A stretch of DNA of 53,240 bases from Candidatus Woesearchaeota archaeon (GTDB lineage Archaea > Nanobdellota > Nanobdellia > Woesearchaeales > SKGA01). Every line of letters starts with the position of its first letter. Positions within the stretch are counted from its first letter, which is position 1. The position numbers were made by a program, and so were the translations under genes. The stretch spans positions 1 through 53,240 of the forward strand of contig JAIPJP010000005.1 in assembly GCA_021734105.1 (NCBI GenBank), given 5' to 3'. The notes under the pieces were generated by a model. It saw only the letters and a program-made list of their open reading frames with translations. It searched no databases and had not been told where the DNA came from. Shown one piece after another: positions 1 through 42,785 of the stretch.

Positions 1-146
1 AGCGGTCTTTTTGTTAGTGCGAGGCTTAGTGGTAGCTTTTTTTGTTGCCTTTTTAGCTGTTTTTGTTGCTGTTTTCTTTGTTGTTTTTTTAGCGGTCTTT
101 TTGTTAGTGCGAGGCTTAGTGGTAGCTTTTTTTGTTGCCTTTTTAG
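1..146. repeat. 90-bp direct repeat inside the Lys-rich tail
   Basis: Positions 1-56 are identical to 91-146, giving a 90-bp (30-codon) period that keeps the reading frame. The array may continue beyond the left edge. Nucleotide-level identity implies recent duplication, not just low amino-acid complexity. Confidence 0.85.
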
Positions 147-618
147 TTGCTTTTTTTGTTGTTTTCTTTTTAACAGCTTTTTTTGGTGTTGCTTTCTTTG
201 TCACTGTCTTATTTACAACAACAGGCTTTCGCTCAACACGAACAACAGGTGGTTCTTGATGGTTGTCAAGTCGAAGTTGTTTTTCAACACGACCTTTTTT
301 TGGCTGAACATACCAAATACTTAACATCAAACCAATAAGCGAACCAATAACAAATTCTAAAATAAGATTAGGATACAATGCAGCGCGATACGTTGTTGCA
401 TACACAACAAAAATAATTGTAGCTGCAATAAATAAATAATTGAACTTATGCATTGTCTTTTGCTTACCTGGAACAGTAGTTGCCCTGTACAAGAAATAGG
501 CATTTAAAATAAGCAAGGCGAATTTACCAGCTTGAACAAGTCCACTGGATTGAATAAGTAAACTTAAAAACAACACAATAAATGTAAGATAATTGATGAA
601 TAATCTTGTTTTCTTCAT
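1..618 (-). CDS. Membrane protein with Lys/Ala/Thr-rich repetitive tail (3' end cut by window)
   Basis: The frame is open from the ATG at 618 to the window edge, so the C-terminus is missing. The first ~110 residues hold three to four hydrophobic segments (starting near residues 6, 28, 58 and 86). A charged linker follows, then a tail of KKAT/KKTTKK-type repeats. Within the tail a 30-codon unit is repeated, so 1-56 and 91-146 are identical. The design suggests a membrane anchor with a cytoplasmic polycation that could bind nucleic acid or acidic lipids; that role is inference. The TATA box at 641-649 is 27 nt before the ATG, so the transcript is probably leaderless. No family is recognised. 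Confidence 0.7.
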   Translation of the reverse strand, partial: MKKTRLFINYLTFIVLFLSLLIQSSGLVQAGKFALLILNAYFLYRATTVPGKQKTMHKFNYLFIAATIIFVVYATTYRAALYPNLILEFVIGSLIGLMLSIWYVQPKKGRVEKQLRLDNHQEPPVVRVERKPVVVNKTVTKKATPKKAVKKKTTKKATKKATKKATTKPRTNKKTAKKTTKKTATKTAKKATKKATTKPRTNKKTA

Positions 619-41885: not shown

Positions 41886-42371
41886 TTACTCGTCTGCAAG
41901 TTCTTTATCGTAGTTACCTGCGTTAATTTCTGAGATAAGCTCTGAAGATTTCTTACCATTAATTGTAACGCCCATACTTCTACATGTGCCAAGAATTTCT
42001 TTCACGCGCATTTTTTGGTTTTTACCCGTAACCGCACCTTCTTTCATTCGCGTAATTTTTTTCACTTGTTCAAGTGTGAGGTCTCCCACATAATCAGATT
42101 GAGGTGTGCCACTAGCTTTCTTAATATCGAGTTCTTGCTTGATAAGAGCGGTTGCAGGCGGGGTTCCAATTTCAATTTCAAAAGACTTATCATTAGTTTC
42201 GATGATTACTTTTACAGGAACTTGCATGCCTGCAAAATCAGCAGTTTTTTTGTTAATCTCAGCAACAACTTGTCCGATATTAACTCCTTTTGGACCAAGA
42301 GCAGGTCCTAGTGGAGGTGCAGCACTCGCTTTACCGCCAACAATTAATGCATCTACAGTTTCTTTAGCCAT
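41886..42371 (-). CDS. rpl11: 50S ribosomal protein L11
   Basis: The 161 residues match archaeal L11: MAKETVDALIVGGKASAAPPLGPALGPKGVN start (first residues shown), GTPPATALIK, KEILGTCRSMGVTINGKKS, and an acidic end. It binds the GTPase-associated region of 23S rRNA. The usual neighbours (rpl1, rpl10, rpl12; secE, spt5) are absent here. It has an unusually long leader with a repeat ORF (42386-42538) and is flanked by two structured RNAs. Confidence 0.97.
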   Translation of the reverse strand: MAKETVDALIVGGKASAAPPLGPALGPKGVNIGQVVAEINKKTADFAGMQVPVKVIIETNDKSFEIEIGTPPATALIKQELDIKKASGTPQSDYVGDLTLEQVKKITRMKEGAVTGKNQKMRVKEILGTCRSMGVTINGKKSSELISEINAGNYDKELADE

Positions 42372-42385
42372 TTTTTATTGCCTCA

Positions 42386-42538
42386 TTAAAAGGTGGCTGA
42401 AGTTCGAAAATCTTTGATTTTTGTTTTTTCAGCTAAATTGTTAATTGCTGAAGTTCGAAAATCTTTGATTTTTGTTTTTTCAGCTAAATTGTTAATTGCT
42501 GAAGTTCGAAAATCTTTGATTTTCGTTTCTTTAGCCAT
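42386..42538 (-). CDS. 50-aa repeat ORF upstream of rpl11 (candidate leader peptide)
   Basis: From ATG 42538 the frame runs MAKETKIKDFRTSAINNLAE and so on, and ends TSATF-stop at 42386, 14 nt before the rpl11 ATG. The 17-residue unit KIKDFRTSAINNLAEKT occurs twice, plus a third partial unit. The first five residues (MAKET) and the preceding ATAAAAAA are the same as at the rpl11 start, so the ORF arose by duplicating that start. TGAGG after its stop codon could serve rpl11. It could be a leader peptide, a duplication by-product or untranslated. Confidence 0.5.
   Translation of the reverse strand: MAKETKIKDFRTSAINNLAEKTKIKDFRTSAINNLAEKTKIKDFRTSATF
42396..42532. repeat. 51-bp tandem repeat, 2.7 copies
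   Basis: Units start at 42396, 42447 and 42498; the first two are identical over 51 bp and the third differs slightly and ends in the MAKET region. The period is 17 codons, so expansion or contraction keeps the frame. It is not a CRISPR array: units touch and there are no spacers. Confidence 0.9.
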
Positions 42539-42755
42539 TTTTTTATCATCTGCCAACGAATGTTAGGCGTCATTGTGTGTTTTGCTTTGCTCAACAGCAC
42601 GTAAAAACCTATTTCATAGCTTATTGTTTTTTTTGGCGAAATGGTTGAATAGAATACGTCTATTCCATACTTCACCGGTTGTTTCTCAGAACGAAACTCG
42701 TTCTGGATAGAGGATGCTTCAAACCTTGGTTTTTAGCGACCCCGTGTTTATGGTA
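42539..42755 (-). promoter_or_regulatory. Structured leader upstream of the repeat ORF and rpl11
   Basis: If transcription starts near 42755, about 26 nt after the TATA at 42777-42785 on the minus strand, the leader is about 217 nt before the repeat ORF. It contains a perfect hairpin CAGAACGA-AAC-TCGTTCTG (42687-42705) and a GAATAG/CTATTC hairpin near 42640-42665. A 63-codon frame (42484-42675, GTG start) also crosses it but looks non-coding. Confidence 0.45.
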
Positions 42756-42776
42756 GTAGGAAGGAGTGAACAGGGG

Positions 42777-42785
42777 TTTATAAAA
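42777..42785. promoter_or_regulatory. Near-palindromic TATA serving two directions
   Basis: TTTATAAAA is a TATA box on both strands. On the plus strand its centre is 26 nt before the first base of the predicted RNA at 42807. On the minus strand it points at the rpl11 leader. Confidence 0.5.

Follow-up and report, generated by a model that had tools for sequence, protein, structure and literature searches.

Structured leaders of ribosomal protein mRNAs are known from Bacteria and Archaea, the archaeal L1 operon site of Methanococcus being one example. The L7Ae k-turn leader is another (PMC5539422, PMC6298567). Upstream open reading frames (uORFs) and leader peptides have likewise been described as a class (uORF4u, PMC10219788). 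Our literature searches for archaeal L11 leaders returned nothing directly relevant. Here we describe the region upstream of the L11 gene in a woesearchaeote genome (G000), as found in a window (i.e., the whole stretch of DNA that was analyzed) of 53,240 nucleotides. The genus relatives used for comparison were G001 and G002, two among 59 related genomes, and reference is also made to G071 and G124, which belong to another family (f69).

A tandem array and a 50-codon frame before L11

The gene for ribosomal protein L11 (uL11, 161 aa) was identified by ORF translation and relatives' matches at 41886..42371 on the minus strand, and it is preceded by its own Shine-Dalgarno sequence (SD), GAGG, at 42381..42384 of the same strand. 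L11 was found in 56 of the 59 related genomes and is at most 67% identical to the L11 of named Woesearchaeota; no match was obtained in G003 (same family, 99% complete), which reflects either a gap or divergence. Match positions placed L11 at the head of the L21e-Rpb4 gene cluster for G002 and G071, and on the opposite side of the cluster for G000 and G001.

Immediately upstream of L11, TRF called a minus-strand tandem array at 42396..42535 with a period of 51, 2.7 copies and 96% matches. The window contains three exact copies of the core CAAAGATTTTCGAACTTCAGC, at 42396, 42447, and 42498, and no others; shuffles would lead us to expect 0.01 occurrences. The initial annotation had reported two identical units, and both complete 51-bp units are indeed identical to each other; unit 1 is not the same as units 2-3. 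Unique flanks are present on the same contig. The array region folds better than its shuffles by 4.6 standard deviations (z -4.6) because each unit is a hairpin, with an AAAATC-AAA-GATTTT core and outer GCTGAA/TTCAGC arms, so that three hairpins follow one another.

The array carries a continuous minus-strand frame at 42386..42538, as TRF, the exact cores and the translation bear out. This uORF starts with an ATG at 42538, comprises 50 codons, and ends with a stop at 42386; its 50 residues read MAKETKIKDFRTSAINNLAEKTKIKDFRTSAINNLAEKTKIKDFRTSATF and follow the form MAKET(KIKDFRTSAINNLAEKT)nKIKDFRTSATF. With the L11 start at 42371 (minus), the stop does lie 14 nt before the L11 ATG, as had been claimed. 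The initial annotation had further described a start common to the uORF and L11. This holds from the ATG onward, since both open with ATGGCTAAAGAAAC and their first 14 nt are identical, but the stretches preceding the two ATGs differ by one A (ATAAAAAAATGG versus ATAAAAAATGG). The 15-mer AATGGCTAAAGAAAC is found exactly at two sites only in the 1.07-Mb genome, namely the uORF start and the L11 start. Only a weak SD-like GATGAT precedes the uORF in G000. T-A and T-G steps are scarce in the unit: when dinucleotide-shuffled units were tandemly repeated, 93% kept one or more sense frames open. The array itself also has an open antisense frame. The open frame is therefore expected by chance and is no evidence for a gene.

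The insert in sister genomes and its dispersed core

A tree of five concatenated neighbouring proteins, rooted with G071 and G124, grouped G000 and G001 as sisters and placed G002 outside (support 96). In G001, whose L11 is about 75% identical to that of G000, one hairpin occupies the same place (ATGGCAAAAGCATGTAAAAATCAAAGATTTTTGAGCTTCACCC...), with 68 nt from its ATG to the L11 ATG; AAATCAAAGATTTTTGAGCTTCA lies upstream of L11, after ATGGCAAAAG. The corresponding distance in G000 is 167 nt, which equals 65 + 2x51. A search for the hairpin with its YGARCTTCA tail, allowing 0 mismatches, returned three sites in G000 and one in G001, all of them in the L11 leaders. Neither the insert hairpin nor the uORF was found in the L11 leader of G002, the earlier-branching congener. 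One hairpin in G001 versus three in G000 upholds the earlier view that the array is recent in this lineage. A global MAFFT alignment of the three long leaders was unusable owing to insertions, and core alignments were used instead. Because G000 and G001 are sisters, one gain of the insert in their ancestor suffices and is the simplest history.

The same comparison of repeat count and frame, which had been put forward as a check on the peptide, went against it. A 1-nt indel shifts the frame between the G000 and G001 hairpins, so that the G001 ORF reads MAKACKNQRFLSFTHFIYRR before its stop and only 'MAK' is common to the two. The hairpin is thus conserved at the nucleotide level and the peptide is not. 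The G001 uORF is preceded by a fair SD, TTAGGTAACTAAAATG, and ends 5 nt before the L11 ATG.

G000 has five further, non-array sites with the 15-nt core AAAATCAAAGATTTT in exact form; G001 has two besides its leader, and G002 has one. Those inspected lie outside genes, several of them near tRNA genes or tRNA 3'-end sequences, and the 21-mer AAAAATCAAAGATTTTTGAGC is found both in the L11 leader of G001 and, in G000, at a site flanking a tRNA. Two core copies, 55 nt apart, are present in another woesearchaeote (L071), and similar hairpins occur in other woesearchaeotes. As in a dispersed palindromic repeat, then, the same core is present at several unrelated sites outside genes.

Other repeats were observed alongside. 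In L175 (1400-1520), L185 (1400-1620), L187, and L173, tRNA 3'-end sequences flank short spacers with a AAAAATCAAAGATTTTTG hairpin, an arrangement that resembles small att-like scars or tRNA-derived fragments. A separate dispersed element of ~60-70 bp, TTTACGTGC..stem..ATGACGCCTAACATTCGTTGGC (GTTACGTGCT-stem-GCACAATGACGCCTAYCATTCGTTGGC), lies at 42551..42620 (minus), between the leader RNA described below and the uORF. The genome contains three copies: one precedes L11, one precedes a triosephosphate isomerase-like gene, and one lies close to a dTMP kinase-like gene. The two away from L11 are in L002 (about 1470-1532) and L003 (about 1501-1570). At the contig start (window 1-192) there are imperfect repeats of 90 bp and 12-27 bp; our guess from their letters is that they form a tail, rich in lysine, alanine, and threonine, that belongs to an unfinished minus-strand gene.

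A candidate leader RNA and a 9-mer at predicted L11 transcript starts

Further upstream, covariance models and folds delineated a structured L11 leader RNA at 42660..42759 (minus), which consists of a helix P1 (CCAUA..CAC/GUG..UAUGG), a helix P2 (GGGG-UC-GCU/AGC-AU-CCUC), AAACAA, and GGUGA. It follows a TATA box, TTTATAAA, at 42777..42784 (minus). Judging from this spacing, transcription would start ~28 nt downstream of the TATA box, near 42755, at the base of P1, and the array is presumably transcribed together with L11. The distance from the TATA box to GGTCGC is 35-38 nt and is similar in G001, G002, and G071. At this distance the three congeners have GRGGTCGCT...GCATCCTCTAT...AAACAA...GGTGA, and the pattern GGTCGCTN{2,28}GCATCCTCTAT was retrieved from 3 of the 288 genomes of the order, which are these congeners, once in each and always at L11. 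Covariance models R1 and R2 matched G000 with E-values of 2e-11 and 4e-12, respectively. A covariance model match abutting L11 was obtained in G071 (E 2e-7; AAATCACGGGGTCGCTCCAAGAAGAGCATCCTCTCTAAACAACAGGTGATAACCAATGG), and a second covariance model matched G124, which belongs to the same genus as G071. The RNA thus occurs once per genome and always before L11 in five genomes of two families, with no strong match elsewhere; across the order (353 genomes) and a class sample (378) there were otherwise weak matches only, and those inspected were not at L11. Rfam searches in gathering and E-value modes returned only the tRNAs of the window and chance matches at the array, and no family for the leader RNA.

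The structural evidence differed between the two helices. P2 reads GRGG-UC-GCY/RGC-AU-CCUC across the leaders and was present in the single-sequence minimum free energy (MFE) structures of all five, P1 in those of G001, G002, and G000 with different base pairs. In G071 and G124, GGTGAT is the L11 SD, and by inspection the 5' strand of P1 can pair with it (UCACC/GGUGA in G124, AUCAC/GUGAU in G071); the single-sequence MFE of both pairs the SD differently from P1. Helix pairs were formed in 95.5% of cells versus 39-65% in slid controls. Covariation amounted to one two-sided change, with a score that was reached by 419 of 500 shuffles because the core hardly varies. L11 starts further downstream in the congeners, and where the old start would be, G001 and G002 have ATAGC, aligned opposite ATGGC of G071; the alignment suggests that ATAGC may be a relic L11 start. 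Taken together, we propose this RNA as a candidate new L11 leader RNA and a better candidate for a control element than the array. It would lie at the 5' end of the transcript and is the probable regulator of L11.

We also considered whether the leader RNA mimics the L11-binding site of 23S rRNA, in sense or antisense. Its summed similarity to that site ranked 10 of 1421 windows, which is suggestive, but the resemblance was inconsistent across leaders.

A second element was observed in the L11 leaders of other families. Of the 51 loci L051-L101, which are mostly from Woesearchaeota, 21 have the 9-mer GTTACGCAC or a near variant before L11, including L052, L053, L058, L059, L063, L069, L071, L078, L083, L085, L090, L092, L093, and L097. 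The 9-mer is situated 28-176 nt before the L11 ATG, and most copies begin 27-28 nt after a TATA box, that is, at the expected transcription start. In five whole genomes, TATAAA-N14-30-GTTACGCAC was found at L11 only, bar one extra site. In G000, the 23S rRNA contains a single copy of the 9-mer's reverse complement, GTGCGTAAC, which falls in the L11-binding domain. Given this complementarity, the 9-mer could possibly be a regulatory motif at the transcript's 5' end, antisense to the site that L11 binds on the rRNA. The 9-mer is not in Rfam, and no relevant paper on it was found among those searched.

Origin of the array and comparison with known systems

We consider it fairly probable that the array originated as a hairpin insert with duplication of the L11 start, which was later triplicated, and that the uORF is a by-product of these events and the structured leader RNA a separate feature. 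Specifically, in the ancestor of G000 and G001 a palindrome-bearing piece of ~65-68 nt would have entered at the L11 start codon or arisen by duplication around it; palindromes of this kind sit beside tRNA genes at other places in the genus. The outcome would have been two copies of ATGGC(T/A)AAAG, the downstream one serving as the L11 start and the upstream one opening a short uORF. We infer insertion with start duplication because either an insertion that creates a short flanking duplication or slippage around a hairpin would leave a duplicated gene start together with a palindrome. In G000, 51 bp of the insert would then have been tandemly triplicated, by slippage or hairpin-assisted duplication, so that the L11 mRNA would carry the array in its long 5' leader, with the peptide as a by-product. 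If the array has any function, it would likely act as a structured spacer and through weak termination of the uORF close to the L11 SD. In f69, the P1 helix of the leader RNA can pair with the SD of L11. The array as such is an ordinary kind of event, a small recent rearrangement.

Some observations sit less easily with this origin. In both genomes 5-14 nt lie between the end of the uORF and the L11 ATG, as would be the case for a translated, coupled uORF; the one in G001 has a fair SD, and in G000 selection could be keeping the 14-nt identity between the two starts exact. Moreover, with the insert in two genomes only, histories of gain and loss cannot be fully separated. A translated uORF might instead control L11 by termination-reinitiation at the adjacent SD, the sequence of the peptide being unimportant. 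We regard this as unlikely: G000 and G001 retain the positions at which the uORF begins and ends despite the frame change, and an SD is present before the G001 uORF, but the uORF is absent from G002 and the f69 genomes, its SD in G000 is weak, and L11 has an SD of its own. Somewhat less likely still is a relay in which the leader RNA would sequester the SD, bind L11 or another ligand and so control L11 in this genus, while in the G000/G001 lineage a translated hairpin-uORF, inserted between that RNA and L11, would pass on the control by termination-reinitiation. A leader peptide tuning L11 was first suggested for this locus; one with a conserved, sequence-dependent function is barely credible. 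The continuous frame with its ATG and the common MAK are what one would expect of it, but it is largely refuted by the frameshifted peptide of G001. The lack of such an ORF in G002 and the ease with which an open frame arises by chance also speak against it.

The initial annotation had also raised a slippage-prone, phase-variable locus, in which the number of 51-bp units would vary in the population and tune L11. Two units are identical, and the hairpin count differs between G001 and G000, as such variation might produce. However, 51 bp corresponds to 17 codons, the uORF stops before L11, and the array is downstream of the promoter, so that a change in unit number would alter neither a frame nor promoter spacing. 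As the period keeps the frame and L11 has its own frame and SD, phase variation by frameshift is ruled out. Tuning by copy number is highly improbable too, since predicted accessibility was flat over 0-5 units (unpaired probability of 0.17-0.22 for the SD and 0.31-0.32 for the L11 AUG) and no effect on the L11 SD is predicted. Finally, the copy number might be an assembly artefact. Identical 51-bp units are hazardous for short-read assembly, and this metagenome-assembled genome is in 42 contigs, but unit 1 can be told from units 2-3, the contig runs through unique flanks, and G001 has a single-copy homologue, which together make an artefact very unlikely.

Under the favored origin, by insertion and triplication, the array matters mainly for having led us to the L11 leaders of Woesearchaeales, in which we found two L11-specific 5'-end elements outside Rfam. 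The leader RNA and the 9-mer make the autoregulation of ribosomal proteins in DPANN archaea testable. With regard to known systems, the array is like REP/MITE-like small dispersed palindromes and tandem VNTRs in having a palindromic core at several extragenic sites and in its tandem expansion, and unlike them in that the core is only 15-21 bp, the copies are few, and no link to a transposase has been shown. As in described uORFs and leader peptides, a short ORF lies between the promoter and the main ORF with its stop near the SD, but here the amino acids are not conserved and the ORF is absent from G002. The leader RNA differs from known ribosomal protein mRNA leaders in that the gene is L11, no Rfam family covers it, and ~290 nt of extra sequence precede L11 in G000. 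On the other hand, like bacterial and archaeal leaders of this kind, the RNA at 42660-42759 and its homologues are 5'-end structured RNAs that can occlude the SD.
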